Assembly: GCF_014897705.1 (NCBI RefSeq)
Contig: NZ_JABUXV010000007.1
Span: 1 to 64,000, forward strand
Length of the DNA stretch: 64,000 bases
Direction of reading: 5' to 3'
Origin: Brachybacterium sp. FME24
GTDB taxonomy: Bacteria; Actinomycetota; Actinomycetes; Actinomycetales; Dermabacteraceae
Shown here piece after piece: positions 32,893-37,758 of the stretch. A program made the position numbers and the translations under genes. Each line of letters starts with the position of its first letter. Within the stretch, counting starts at the first letter, position 1. Under the pieces are notes generated by a model. That model was given only the letters and a program-made list of their open reading frames with translations. It did not search any database and was not told the DNA's origin.

Positions 32893-33633
32893 CTAGGGCT
32901 GGGGCGTCGGGGGGTTCTCCGCGCTGACCAGCGTGCCGATGTCCTCGCCCTCGCAGATGCGGCGCATCAGGTTCTTCTGGCCCACGTCGAAGATGTGCAT
33001 CGTCAGGCCCTGTTCCCCGGCAAGCACGAAGGCACTGGTGTCCATCACCTTGATGTTCTTGGCGACAGCCTCCTCGTAGCTCAAGCGCTCGTAGCGCACG
33101 GCATCGGGGTGGAGGTTGGGATCCTTGTCGTAGACAGCGTCGATGTCGCGCTTCGCCACCAGCAGCGCGTCGGCGTCCAGCTCGAGAGCACGCTGCACGG
33201 AGGGATAGTCGGTCGTCACGTACGGCTGGCCGATCCCACCGGCGAGGATCACGATGCGGTGCTGGTCCAGATGAGAGAGGGCGCGGAGGCGGATGAACGG
33301 TTCCGCCACGGACTGCATGGGGACCGCGGTCATCACGCGCACGTCCGCATCGGTGCGTGCCGTGAGCGCACCTCGAAGCATGAGCGCGTTCATCACCGTG
33401 CCCAGCATGCCGATGTTGTCGGCCTCCGCGCGGCCGATTCCCCAGCCCTCGGACATCCGTCCACGGAAATAGTTCCCACCGCCGACGACGACGGCGACCT
33501 GCACGCCCAGTTGATGGACCGCGAGCACCTCATCGCTGAGGTGTGCGAGTCGATCAGGCTCAACGCCCCAGCCGCTCTCGCCCGCGAGAGCTTCGCCGGA
33601 CAGCTTCAGGACGACGCGTTCGTACCGTGACAT
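32893..33633 (-). CDS. pyrH: UMP kinase
   Basis: A 246-residue amino-acid-kinase-fold enzyme that phosphorylates UMP with ATP. Landmarks: VVLKLSGEALAG, VAVVVGGGNYFRGR, ADNIGMLGTVMNAL, DYPSVQRALELDADALLVAK and DIDAVYDKDPNLH, all diagnostic for bacterial UMP kinase. GAGGGAG lies 8 bases before the ATG. The housekeeping pyrH normally sits between tsf and frr; this one is among accessory genes next to a transposon, so it may be an extra copy. Residues such as NYFRG (usually N-I-F/W-R-G) show it is somewhat diverged. Confidence 0.9.
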   Translation of the reverse strand: MSRYERVVLKLSGEALAGESGWGVEPDRLAHLSDEVLAVHQLGVQVAVVVGGGNYFRGRMSEGWGIGRAEADNIGMLGTVMNALMLRGALTARTDADVRVMTAVPMQSVAEPFIRLRALSHLDQHRIVILAGGIGQPYVTTDYPSVQRALELDADALLVAKRDIDAVYDKDPNLHPDAVRYERLSYEEAVAKNIKVMDTSAFVLAGEQGLTMHIFDVGQKNLMRRICEGEDIGTLVSAENPPTPQP

Positions 33634-33784
33634 GCGGTCCGCTCCCTCGATGCGGGCCCTGCGGATCAGGGCCACATTGTCTGCCAGTATCGCCAACGCA
33701 TCGCCGCTTGGGGGCTGTCCGATTGCTTCCGGCGGTCTAATTCTGGGAACTGCGACAGCCGATCGCGGCTGTGCATGCCTTCGA

Positions 33785-33790
33785 TAGGCT
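33785..33790 (+). promoter_or_regulatory. leaderless -10 of the exonuclease-like gene
   Basis: TAGGCT ends 6 bases before ATG 33797; no Shine-Dalgarno. Confidence 0.55.
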
Positions 33791-33796
33791 CGACAT

Positions 33797-34393
33797 ATGA
33801 CCAAGATCGAGAGCCCCGAATGGACCTTCATCGTGACCGATATCGAGGTCGACGGGCCCCATAGAGGAGCGAACTCGATGCGGTCGTTCGCCTCTGTGGC
33901 AGTGTCGGCCAACGGTGCCGAGCACGGCCAGTTTGAGGCGGTTCTCGAGCCTCTGCCTGGCGCAGCGCCCAATGCGGACACGTACGCGTGGTTTCAGACC
34001 CAACCAGACGCCTGGGCGGCGTGCACCACCGATCCCCGCCCTGTACCTGACGTGATGCGCGACTACACACAATGGCTGCACACGCTGCCTCAGCCGCGCA
34101 TGTTCGCGGCCTGCCCACTGGCTTTCGATGGGCCCTGGATCGACTACTACCTACGCCGCTTCACGAACTACGGAATCACCCAGGGACGCGACGAGACCGA
34201 CAAGATCTTCCATTCACCGGGGCTGTGCTTGTCGTCGTACGCCTCCGCGGTGACGGGCATCCCCCCGTGGAACTTTCAACCCGCCGACCTTCCTTCATGG
34301 ATGCTCGGCGACGTGCCGCACACGCACTGTGCAATCGACGACGCCATCGGCTACGCAAATCTCCTCGTCAATCTGCTCGGCGGACGACACTGA
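33797..34393 (+). CDS. DEDD-type 3'-5' exonuclease-like protein
   Basis: A 198-residue protein with the RNase H-like exonuclease pattern: DIE at 15-17 (Asp15, Glu17), a middle Asp in AFDGPWIDYYL and a C-terminal H-x4-D (HCAIDDAIGYANLL). It resembles the small stand-alone exoribonucleases described for Rv2179c of Mycobacterium (recall). It would trim RNA or DNA 3' ends using two metal ions. A leaderless start follows TAGGCT. It is 24 bp from the HAD gene on the same strand. Confidence 0.65.
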   Translation: MTKIESPEWTFIVTDIEVDGPHRGANSMRSFASVAVSANGAEHGQFEAVLEPLPGAAPNADTYAWFQTQPDAWAACTTDPRPVPDVMRDYTQWLHTLPQPRMFAACPLAFDGPWIDYYLRRFTNYGITQGRDETDKIFHSPGLCLSSYASAVTGIPPWNFQPADLPSWMLGDVPHTHCAIDDAIGYANLLVNLLGGRH

Positions 34394-34417
34394 CATCGTC
34401 CCTGGCATGATCGGGAC

Positions 34418-35056
34418 ATGACTTCGACACGCGTCCCGCCCGGCGTTCGAGCAGTCGTCTTCGACGTCGGGGAGACTTTGGTCGACGAGTCTCGCGCCTG
34501 GCGCAGGCAGGCTGAACTCGCCGGCATCTCTCCGTTCACGCTGATGGCGATGATCGGATCTCTGATCGAACGTGGAGAGGACCATCGCCACGTCTGGCGC
34601 GAGCTGAACGTCGCGCCACCTACCGAGCCGCCGCGGATCATCGAGGCGGACCTTTACCCGGATGCAGTCGCGTGCCTGCAGGACACCATGGCCGCTGGGT
34701 TCATCGTCGGCATCGCGGGCAACCAGCCGGCGGGCCTCGAATCGCAACTGCGGGACGCGGGCTTCGAGGCCGACTTCATCGCGACGTCCACTGCGTGGGG
34801 CGTTGTGAAACCCTCGCAGGAATTCTTCGAGCGGACCATCGCTGCGACGACGCTGAGCCCCGCAGAGATTCTGTATGTCGGAGATCGGCTCGACAACGAC
34901 GTACTGCCTGCGCGCCGCGCGGGCATGCACACCGCACTGTTAGTGCGAGGGCCCTGGGGTCACCTCCACTCCAGGCGTGACGAGGCGGCACTGGCGGACC
35001 TGAGAATCTCGACTCTGTCGGAACTGGCTCAAGAGCTCCGGCTCGCTTGGCCCTAG
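34418..35056 (+). CDS. HAD-superfamily hydrolase
   Basis: A 212-residue phosphatase-type HAD protein. Motif I is FDVGETLVD (nucleophile Asp16), with GET in place of the usual DGT. Motif II is GIAGNQP, motif III Lys in GVVKPSQEFF and motif IV GDRLDND. The substrate is unknown. CATGAT lies 6 bases before the ATG. The stop codon TAG is part of the CTAG that borders the mobile element downstream, and would have been present before insertion as well, so the gene is intact. Confidence 0.82.
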   Translation: MTSTRVPPGVRAVVFDVGETLVDESRAWRRQAELAGISPFTLMAMIGSLIERGEDHRHVWRELNVAPPTEPPRIIEADLYPDAVACLQDTMAAGFIVGIAGNQPAGLESQLRDAGFEADFIATSTAWGVVKPSQEFFERTIAATTLSPAEILYVGDRLDNDVLPARRAGMHTALLVRGPWGHLHSRRDEAALADLRISTLSELAQELRLAWP

Positions 35057-35071
35057 GCCGTGTTGCTAAAC
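35057..35071. repeat. left terminal inverted repeat
   Basis: GCCGTGTTGCTAAAC directly after CTAG; matches the right end in 13 of 15 positions. Confidence 0.7.
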
Positions 35072-35106
35072 GTCGTGGCGACCGTCCGGTCAAGCGATGG
35101 GGGAGG

Positions 35107-35718
35107 TCAATCCCGTAGCGAGCAATGATCCGCGCTGGTCGCCCAGGCTTTGAGCCATTCGACGAGTAGCGCTTTCTCAGCCGCCTGGACTCGCGCACGG
35201 AGGGACGTGACATCGTCAGTTGGGAGAACCTCTACGGATGTCTGCGCCAAGATTGGGCCTTCGTCATAGTTTTCGGTCGCGACGTGGACCGTTGCTCCGG
35301 TGACGGTTTCCTTGTCGAGCAAGACGGCCTGATGCACCCGATCGCCATACATCCCTGTGCCACCGTAGGCCGGCAGCAGTGCCGGATGGGTGTTGATAAT
35401 TCGGTGCTCGTACGCATCCCGAACCCGGGGTCCAATCTTCTTCATGTACCCGGCCAGCACTATCAAATCGATCCTCTCGCCAATCAACGCGTCCAGCATG
35501 GCAGCATCGCGGAGGTCTGGATCAGGATGGGTAACACCGCTCAGATGGATGCTCGGGATGCCGTGGCCGTTGGCGACATCGAAAATCCCCGATCTGCTGT
35601 TGTTCCCGACGATGAGAGCGACTTCGGCAGGGACCATTGTCTCGGTCGCGACCACAACGGCCTCGGCCGTAGTCCCGGACCCAGATCCGATGAGCGCCAG
35701 CCGCTTGAGTGAAGACAC
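35107..35718 (-). CDS. PurN-like formyltransferase, carried by the mobile unit
   Basis: A 203-residue formyltransferase fold protein resembling glycinamide-ribonucleotide transformylase (PurN), which adds a formyl group from 10-formyl-THF in purine synthesis. Catalytic residues are in place: Asn109 and His111 in IINTHPALLP, and Asp152 in ENYDEGPILAQ. The phosphate-binding N-terminus GSGSGTT replaces the usual GSGSGSN-like loop. The start is GTG, 6 bases after TAAACT, probably leaderless. It lies inside inverted repeats rather than in a purine operon, so it may be an extra copy or act on another amine such as a sugar nucleotide. Confidence 0.8.
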   Translation of the reverse strand: MSSLKRLALIGSGSGTTAEAVVVATETMVPAEVALIVGNNSRSGIFDVANGHGIPSIHLSGVTHPDPDLRDAAMLDALIGERIDLIVLAGYMKKIGPRVRDAYEHRIINTHPALLPAYGGTGMYGDRVHQAVLLDKETVTGATVHVATENYDEGPILAQTSVEVLPTDDVTSLRARVQAAEKALLVEWLKAWATSADHCSLRD

Positions 35719-35724
35719 GAACGC

Positions 35725-35730
35725 AGTTTA
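35725..35730 (-). promoter_or_regulatory. leaderless -10 of the PurN-like gene
   Basis: TAAACT on the minus strand, 6 bases before GTG 35718. It lies inside the mobile unit, so the passenger carries its own promoter. Confidence 0.5.
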
Positions 35731-35763
35731 CGGCTCCCCGGCGACCAGGCGCGCAAAGTCATG

Positions 35764-36620
35764 CTAAATTGCCGCCGCCCAGTTCGTGGTGAGCCAGTGG
35801 AGTGTTGCGGCGAGGCAGAGGCCCGCGTGGTAGTTGCGGACGGTCTTGTCTGAGCGCATCGCGATCCCACGCCACTGCTTGAGCTTGTTGAAGCACCGCT
35901 CGACGACGTTGAGACCGCGGTAGCGAGTTCGCGACTGGTCGCCGAAGTCGCTCGGTTGCCCGCGCCTCTTGCGTCGGTGCGCGATCTGGTCGTCGCGCTC
36001 CGGGATCGTCGCAGCGATCCCGCGCTGACGGAGCCAGGCCCGGTTCGCCCTCGACGGGTAGCCCTTGTGTGCGAGCACCCGGTCCGGCCTGGAGCGTGGC
36101 CTGCCCCGAGCGCCCGGGACACGGATCTCACTCAGCGTCGTGTCCAGCATGCTGGTGTCCGCCGCCTGCCCGGGCGTGAGGATGAACGCCGGAGCCCATC
36201 CCTTCCCATCACAGACCAAGTGATTCTTCGTCGTCAGTCCGCCGTGGAAGCGACCGATCGCGCGATCGAGCGGATCCTCACCGAACTTCTTGTAGTTTGC
36301 CAGAGCCCCCTGTCGTGCGGGGAAGTGTCGCGCCATGCTGGTAGACGCGCACGATCGTGGAGTCGATCGACGCGCCCCAGTCCAGATCCCCGGACTGCTG
36401 CGCGAGCGACTGCGTCTTCTCCAGCACCCGCGCCCACACGCCCTGCTCGGCCCACCGATTGAAGTTCTTAAAGATCGTGTTCCAGTTCCCGAACCGCGCC
36501 GGTCCGGAACCGGCACGCCGTCGCCTCGACCACCGTGCGCCGATCCACCGGAGGCCGTCCCGTCGACTTCACCGCCGGGAACAACGGACCGTTCACAGCC
36601 CACGCTTCATCCGAGATCAC
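35764..36620 (-). pseudogene. IS5-family transposase, decayed
   Basis: Two overlapping frames encode an IS5-type transposase. The first begins near 36620 with DEAWAVNGPLFPAVKSTGRP and RRTVVEATACRFRTG. There the DNA has lost part of the usual WRDLPERFG segment, shifting the frame and stopping at 36468. The sequence resumes one frame over as NWNTIFKNFNRWAEQGVW up to GGSGKLQEVR-stop. The second frame (to 35764) carries ATIPERDDQ and VERCFNKLKQWRGIAMR. The catalytic Asp expected in ADKGY is His (AHKGY). Both changes make it inactive. Confidence 0.85.
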
Positions 36621-36666
36621 ATCACGCGACGCGCACCCAAGACTCGCCCACACGGCAGCCGAAGAG

Positions 36667-36681
36667 GTTTGGCAACACGCC
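36667..36681. repeat. right terminal inverted repeat
   Basis: GTTTGGCAACACGCC followed by CTAG; inverted partner of 35057-35071. It ends 45 bp from the stop codon of the adjacent binding-protein gene. Confidence 0.7.
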
Positions 36682-36726
36682 CTAGTTCCTCCAAGGGTCG
36701 TGCCGACGACGACTGGCTGCCCCGCC

Positions 36727-37758
36727 TCAGGCGGTGGCGCCCTCGGCGAAGCTGGCGTCGACGACGGTGGCCACGTCGATGGGCTCGGTGTAGGTGATCT
36801 GCTCCGCGTCGATCCACACCGTCTGCATGTTCTCCAGCTGCTCCGGCTGCGGGGCGAGATCGGGCAGGTAGGAGTACATCGGCGAGGCCTTGAGCACGTC
36901 GATCTCCTGGCCCAGGGTGTCGGCGAGGATCTGGTAGACCTCATCGGTCTGGGTGCCGTCGTCCGAGAGCTCCTGGGCGCCCTGGGCGAGCGCCGAGAAG
37001 AAGGCCTGGGCGAGATCCTGGCCGAGGAAGGTCTCGGAGTAGAGCACGCCGGTGCCGGTGGTGCCCTGGGCTGGAACGGCGAGCGGGGAGGCGACCCCGG
37101 CCTCCTCCATCGCGGTGGAGAACGGGGCCGACGGCGTCGCGGCGTCGACGGAGCCGTTGGTCAGCGCGGGCTCCTGATCAGGGGTCGAGAGGTTGGAAAC
37201 TTCGACGTCGTTCAGCGTCAGGCCACCCTCCTCGAGCATCGCCGCCAGCAGGTAGCCGCCGGTGGCGCCGGGGCCGCCGGCCACGCCGATCTTGCGACCC
37301 TCGAGATCGGCGACCGAGGTCACGGAACCGTCGTCGATCAGCTTCTGGCTCACCTCGAGCGCCGTCGGGGAGTTCTCGGGATCGCCCGGCGAGATGCCCA
37401 TGGACCCGACGACTTTGAAGGCGAGGCCCTGGTCCAGCGCGTTGAACATGCCCGCGCTGAAGCCGGCGATCATGACGTCCAACTGGTCGTTCGACAGCAT
37501 GGGGATGCCGTCCTGGCCGGACTTCAGCGGAGTCAGCTCGAGGGTGATGCCGGCGTCCTCGAAGTAGCCCATCGCGTCGGCCACGTACAGGGGTGCGAAC
37601 AGCGAGGAGGGCACGTGGCCCACGCGGACCGTGCCGGAGGCGGAGCCCCCGTCGCCCCCGGAGCCGGTGTCCTCACCGGTGACGGCGGGTCCGCAGGCGG
37701 CGAGGGCCCCGCCGACGGCGGTCGCGGAGGCGAAGGAGAGCAGGGTGCGTCGTCGCAT
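36727..37758 (-). CDS. ABC transporter substrate-binding lipoprotein (SsuA/NMT1 type)
   Basis: A 343-residue extracytoplasmic receptor. The leader MRRRTLLSFASATAVGG ends in lipobox LAAC (Cys22), followed by a Gly/Ser linker. The body begins VRVGHVPSSLFAPLYVADAMGYFEDAGI, typical of the nitrate/taurine/sulfonate/thiamine-precursor receptor family, and has DLEGRKIGVAGGPGATGGYLL. The substrate is not determinable from sequence alone. It heads neither end of an operon obviously; the permease and ATPase genes lie upstream on the same strand. Confidence 0.87.
   Translation of the reverse strand: MRRRTLLSFASATAVGGALAACGPAVTGEDTGSGGDGGSASGTVRVGHVPSSLFAPLYVADAMGYFEDAGITLELTPLKSGQDGIPMLSNDQLDVMIAGFSAGMFNALDQGLAFKVVGSMGISPGDPENSPTALEVSQKLIDDGSVTSVADLEGRKIGVAGGPGATGGYLLAAMLEEGGLTLNDVEVSNLSTPDQEPALTNGSVDAATPSAPFSTAMEEAGVASPLAVPAQGTTGTGVLYSETFLGQDLAQAFFSALAQGAQELSDDGTQTDEVYQILADTLGQEIDVLKASPMYSYLPDLAPQPEQLENMQTVWIDAEQITYTEPIDVATVVDASFAEGATA

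Follow-up and report, generated by a model that had tools for sequence, protein, structure and literature searches.

A unit of 1625 bp (positions 35057-36681) in the stretch of Brachybacterium sp. FME24 DNA analysed here (64,000 nucleotides of contig C63 of a 4.8-Mb genome, referred to below as the window) is most probably a passenger-bearing insertion sequence (IS) of the IS5 family, or transporter IS (tIS), with the gene for a PurN-like formyltransferase as its cargo. An earlier note on this DNA had proposed a PurN-carrying IS5-family-like element at this place, and this is also our best reading; the transposase scores above the cut-off of its family model and the passenger matches a formyltransferase domain. 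The tIS reading is supported by the matching pair of ends, each bordered by CTAG, and by a truncated inner end just where the end of a normal copy would lie, by the eight kinds of cargo that occur in this IS group versus normal copies of 922-943 bp, and by the fact that purN is not found elsewhere with the neighbouring HAD gene, which ends naturally at the CTAG.

Results

Read from position 35053, the unit and its flanks consist of CTAG, a 15-bp end, the PurN-like gene, an IS5-type transposase, the inverted 15-bp end, and CTAG again (to 36685). The outer, cargo-side terminal repeat, GCCGTGTTGCTAAAC (35057-35071), agrees at 13 of 15 positions with the opposite end when the latter is taken as its reverse complement, GGCGTGTTGCCAAAC; on the plus strand this transposase-side repeat reads GTTTGGCAACACGCC (36667-36681), and it matches the 5' ends of related copies. 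The two repeats enclose both transposase and passenger, as in a tIS, and the CTAG on either side, putatively two copies of the target (35053-35056, where it doubles as the stop codon of the HAD gene, and 36682-36685), corresponds to the short, TA-centred target of the IS5 family. The 17-base pattern made of CTAG plus the end, CTAGGSCGTGTTGCYAA, has 17 exact matches in seven of the 38 genomes of the genus, and its backwards control has none in the same 38. Because the exact pattern recurs and the control does not, a chance origin of the ends is ruled out, and the 15-bp outer inverted repeats with 13 matches and flanking CTAG that had been described before do stand in the sequence. When up to two mismatches were allowed, these genomes gave 35 matches versus 26 for the control, which is near noise, and for this reason ends were accepted only when exact, with one mismatch, or as pairs around a transposase.

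The transposase (35764-36640, minus strand) belongs to a known IS family, with 118.8 bits against the NCBIfam model NF033580 (IS5 family; cut-off 110), and we take its group to be, probably, IS427-like. In the case of orfA, the protein of a relative (L160) matched the window in two frames by tblastn, with the change near 36495-36502; orfB is open and was matched as one piece (residues 1-189 of 192). The decay attributed to this transposase in the past is therefore seen as a frameshift that breaks orfA, in a damaged member of the family rather than one with a working DDE transposase. The change of frame from orfA to orfB is probably native, because L160 has one as well. As it stands, the window unit is probably unable to move by itself. 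A related transposase, of the kind that the earlier note had suggested looking for, is present in the same genome (G000:C67:142442-143365); its orfA and orfB both align as a single piece, and its ends are similar.

Next to the transposase, the inner 3' end is reduced to TTTAGCA (35762-35768, minus strand), which overlaps the transposase stop codon. In the transposase sense it occupies unit positions 914-920, holds the stop, and then departs from the repeat. The normal copies that are 922-925 bp long have a terminal repeat, TTTAGCAACACGSC (in one of them TTTAGCAGCACGCC instead), that starts at 909-912 and contains the stop, so that comparison with the 3' ends of these copies at the same position bears out the claim that a truncated inner terminus was left here.

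The passenger gene (35107-35718, minus strand) starts with GTG, is intact, and encodes 203 aa with a Pfam Formyl_trans_N match of 122.7 bits, in agreement with the complete formyltransferase gene reported before; it has formyltransferase family matches only, and thus no role in transposition. Like phosphoribosylglycinamide formyltransferase (PurN), the protein aligns with solved PurN chains (3p9x_A, residues 4-190, E 6.2e-33) and retains the NxHP and DxGPI stretches, which presumably hold the catalytic Asn, His, and Asp, and it is predicted to be an active enzyme. Unlike established PurN proteins, however, it reaches only 135.1 bits against the equivalog model TIGR00639 (cut-off 150.1), for which reason we call it PurN-like and its substrate putative, and it is 37% identical to the other PurN-like match in the same genome (at C16), which is probably the housekeeping purN. 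The best other PurN match was 47% identical among the matches listed for 98 genomes, own genome included, and 50.7% in a search of plasmids; viral contigs gave no match. The closest relative found, in a search of genome contigs, is a Nesterenkonia muleiensis protein (64% over residues 53-202), for which the start region before residue ~50 was not found, and whose locus is without a nearby transposase of this IS group. Between the two genes, codons differ at 41, 37, and 93 first, second, and third positions (150 codons), which points to constraint on the protein.

Because the PurN-like gene starts 45 bp beyond the transposase stop and in the same direction, its expression by read-through or from its own promoter are both possible. 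A TAAACT hexamer is present at 35730-35725, 6 bp ahead of the GTG; a scan of 34900-36800 for sites of the sigma-70 type found none (mean of the shuffles, 0.3), and the leaderless promoter previously assigned to this gene was thus not confirmed.

As for the site, the region to the left (32893-35056) contains a gene for UMP kinase (268 bits against TIGR02075, whose cut-off is 243.9), a weak match to an Rv2179c-like exonuclease, and the HAD gene. These left neighbours have a GC content of 63-66% and the purN-like gene of 60.1%, versus 69.7% for the window. The HAD gene, present in 12 out of the 396 genomes searched in the order (E <= 1e-45), stops at 35056, that is, with the left CTAG, and this is its natural end; the G007 homologue ends within about two codons of it. 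No purN lies within ~1.5 kb of HAD at the 11 other HAD loci, and HAD, exonuclease-like, pyrH, or GNAT genes are absent from the stretches compared at 80 PurN loci (out of 315 found). These 80 loci also lack a transposase of the IS group, and their 13 end-like matches (at most one mismatch) include none with CTAG. A PurN-like gene at this very place in relatives, which had been named as a reason to abandon the earlier reading, was not encountered among the matches listed for the 98 genomes. An empty site, sought as the 31 bases of the rejoined junction with at most three mismatches, was found in 0 of 38 genomes of the genus, a negative that is uninformative because in the 20 relatives compared (out of 26 loci returned) similarity on the right flank starts only at the end of the ABC-transporter gene. 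In the same relatives, right-flank similarity does not reach into 32893-35056.

An order-wide search with orfB of L160 as the query (396 genomes, up to eight candidates scored per genome) returned at least 22 matches with an identity of 66% or higher, which are spread over 13 genomes. Both boundaries are known for 13 of the 22, seven of them normal copies of 922-943 bp (G021, G101, G118, G111, G127, and one each in G234 and G034) and six with cargo (the window, G000:C67, G008, G014, G031, and G028); among the rest, four are truncated or lack one or more ends (two in G034, one in G234, one in G407), and five in G034 were left out. Thirteen plasmid records matched the transposase at E <= 1e-50, and the best place in each proved to be a normal copy in seven (937-942 bp), a copy with cargo in four (Leifsonia sp. 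ZF2019, Cellulosimicrobium cellulans, Microbacterium paraoxydans, and M. sediminis), and could not be assigned in two (Microbacterium sp. BDGP8 and Rhodococcus sp. USK13); the BDGP8 record holds an additional cargo unit, with another IS5 copy. Normal copies are flanked on both sides by CTAG or by a sequence one letter off. At E <= 1e-65, a transposase search of the phylum matched 2 of 396 genomes, neither of them new. Dropped before counting were a Rhodococcus mer copy (L190, whose end is without CTAG and whose transposase is truncated), a Citricoccus mer copy (L191, no end found), and a G033 copy (L166) that is part of a mer unit with the same flank as in G014.

The cargo of these units is of eight kinds, namely the PurN-like gene of the window and seven others: a TetR-type regulator with a type I GAPDH (C67, in the same genome as the window), a MerR-family regulator with MerA (G008 and G014), a 99-aa ORF without match in a family search (G031), a DF-family protein (63.9 bits, below the cut-off of 70; G028 and two Microbacterium plasmids), an EXLDI protein (Leifsonia) and a DUF6226 protein (BDGP8), both named from the record annotation, and a 121-aa ORF with no Pfam match (Cellulosimicrobium). 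Since the reading frame of DUF6226 extends 15 bp beyond the outer end of its unit, this cargo may be incomplete as a gene. Seven of the eight kinds of cargo are situated between the end of the transposase and the outer 3' end, and the eighth, that of C67, lies upstream. When the seven kinds other than DUF6226 were compared pairwise, each of the 21 pairs gave one similar stretch, which ends at ~875-921 of the transposase module, before the cargo. The C67 unit (L170 2038-4866; G000:C67:140537-143365) has its tetR-type and type I GAPDH genes between the outer end and a degraded inner 5' end.

Two kinds of cargo unit were found at more than one site. Between G008 and G014 the mer units can be aligned from one CTAG to the other, at 90.5% over the main stretch, and their flanks differ; the G014 copy has lost part of its transposase. 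The three occurrences of the 1307-bp DF unit, in G028 and on two Microbacterium plasmids, lie at unrelated sites and are 99.7-100% identical, with similarity stopping at most 4 bp from the ends of the unit; the flanks are CGAG/CGAG, CTAG/CTAG, and TCAG/CTGA, so that the target is not always CTAG. Because the mer and DF units recur at different sites with their boundaries at the ends, these alignments indicate that cargo units of the group move as wholes, also between genera, and such movement is, by analogy, the strongest support for reading the window unit alike. A search for the same 1.6-kb unit elsewhere, as the earlier note had advised, was therefore rewarded in the case of the sister cargo units and not in that of the purN unit itself, of which there is a single copy in its own genome and, among the matches listed, nothing closer than the 47% mentioned above.

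A tree of orfB was built from 23 rows, of which six carry cargo; the plasmid units of Leifsonia, Cellulosimicrobium, and Microbacterium were left out. On this tree the cargo label calls for four changes, three or more of them imposed by well-supported branches, and cargo has repeatedly been gained or lost. The partner of the C67 transposase is the normal copy of G101 (98/99), and that of the window transposase is G031, which has another cargo (92/88, below the star). The label is weakly grouped, as shuffled labels did equally well in 50 of 500 trials.

Discussion

According to the tIS reading, the transposase would recognise short ends (~13-15 bp) and insert mostly at CTAG. One end of the window unit would be the normal transposase-side end, and, as the normal inner 3' end has been cut to TTTAGCA, the other would lie past the purN-like gene; since everything between the two outer ends moves along with the element, the formyltransferase gene would have become cargo. 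The window copy may have been inserted as one piece. Considering the presence of the related C67 transposase and its similar ends, it is plausible that this enzyme could move the unit in trans.

With regard to how the gene was captured, C67 and the window together suggest that the inner end was damaged and its role then passed to a second, outer one, such an outer end being perhaps the tip to which a neighbouring IS copy was later reduced. A possible, though tentative, route would start from two neighbouring IS copies around a gene; one copy would then be largely deleted and the inner end damaged, which would leave a unit with a single transposase. In C67, in fact, the outer end and the inner 5' end are alike over 32 bp (87.5%), a longer stretch than the terminal repeat, and the inner one, now degraded, has no CTAG before it; the inner 3' end of the window unit is shortened as well. 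The outer end of the window unit, however, shares with IS ends only the 15-bp repeat, a fact that also counts against the tIS reading itself, most other cargo units have no inner remnant, and the outer flanks of C67, CTAG and ATAG, are not an exact pair. Because most cargo units lack that remnant, capture in a single step via a stray outer end is as possible as capture between two IS copies.

Alternatively, the arrangement might stem from two separate events. In that case purN would have arrived together with the low-GC left-hand region, an IS would have inserted on the right of purN and then been deprived of its 3' end, and the left 15-bp end would be what remains of another IS copy, inserted at a second CTAG. 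We consider this improbable, in spite of the GC content of the left neighbours, to whose region purN could indeed belong, and of the fact that CTAG is the usual target of this IS group, so that both flanks would be expected anyway and are weak proof of one event. Two events would require a second IS cut to exactly its terminal repeat, in the correct orientation and with purN in between, and yet the identical layout recurs with other cargo, and HAD and purN were not found together at any of the 11 HAD or 80 PurN loci. The tIS reading has in turn to accommodate the single copy of the purN unit, the lack of an empty site in 38 genomes, and the weak grouping of the cargo label. A composite transposon in its present state is rejected, as the unit has one IS copy and a 15-bp end rather than two flanking IS.

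Insertion sequences with passenger genes are already known, and the window unit probably adds a member of the IS5 family to them. In the available parts of PMC9330008 and PMC7986276, tIS are an accepted class, with one transposase module and, between two terminal repeats, genes unneeded for transposition, which is also the layout of the window unit. The published examples there differ in family, as they belong to IS6 (PMC7986276), IS481, ISL3, and ISNCY, the last three with actinobacterial cases in PMC6305408; the passengers described are regulators, permeases, transport genes, and others. The earlier note called insertion sequences with metabolic passengers of this type unfamiliar; the class of insertion sequences with passenger genes is in print. 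The accessible text of PMC7986276, PMC7371123, PMC9330008, PMC6305408, and PMC2516522 gave neither an IS5-family tIS nor a PurN or GAPDH passenger; our comparison covers these sources, and makes no claim of absence from print. With the IS5 family the window unit shares a transposase above the NF033580 cut-off, the orfA/orfB frames, and ends and CTAG like those of normal copies, from which it differs by its 1625 bp versus 922-943 bp, its cargo gene, and its truncated inner end.

What these units mean is, in our opinion, that a simple IS5-type element can enclose ordinary single genes, here the gene of a purine-type enzyme and, elsewhere in this genome, that of a glycolytic one. From normal copies, through those whose inner end is damaged, to cargo units spread between genera, the copies form a series that makes the origin of passenger-bearing IS testable, and annotators should be warned that an isolated metabolic gene next to an IS5 transposase is possibly cargo. 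There is perhaps an even chance that this IS5 clade is a recurrent one-gene shuttle, whose short ends would allow the transposase to skip the normal 3' end in favour of one farther out, with the slot between transposase and outer end repeatedly refilled by unrelated single genes or small operons that spread between genera and plasmids of Micrococcales. Such a clade-wide habit of taking up small cargo, if true, would be a more novel point than the window unit itself.

Some further arrangements of IS ends were seen in the course of this analysis. In G097 (L184 4810-4844), two abutted IS ends within 35 bp are followed by CTAG, without a transposase, and this stretch is either an end-to-end junction or a minimal remnant. 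A plasmid of Microbacterium sp. BDGP8 (L248 2467-2966) has a CTAG-flanked pair of TTGATCAA-type ends spanning 500 bp, with no transposase annotated inside, possibly a deletion derivative or a MITE-like unit, and in G007 (C24; L174 2292) a lone IS end with CTAG has no transposase match within 6.5 kb. In two Paenarthrobacter plasmids, finally, normal IS copies of 939 bp (L239 and L247, 3628-4566) adjoin merA-merR, which lie outside the unit, and this could be an early stage of cargo pick-up or a coincidence.
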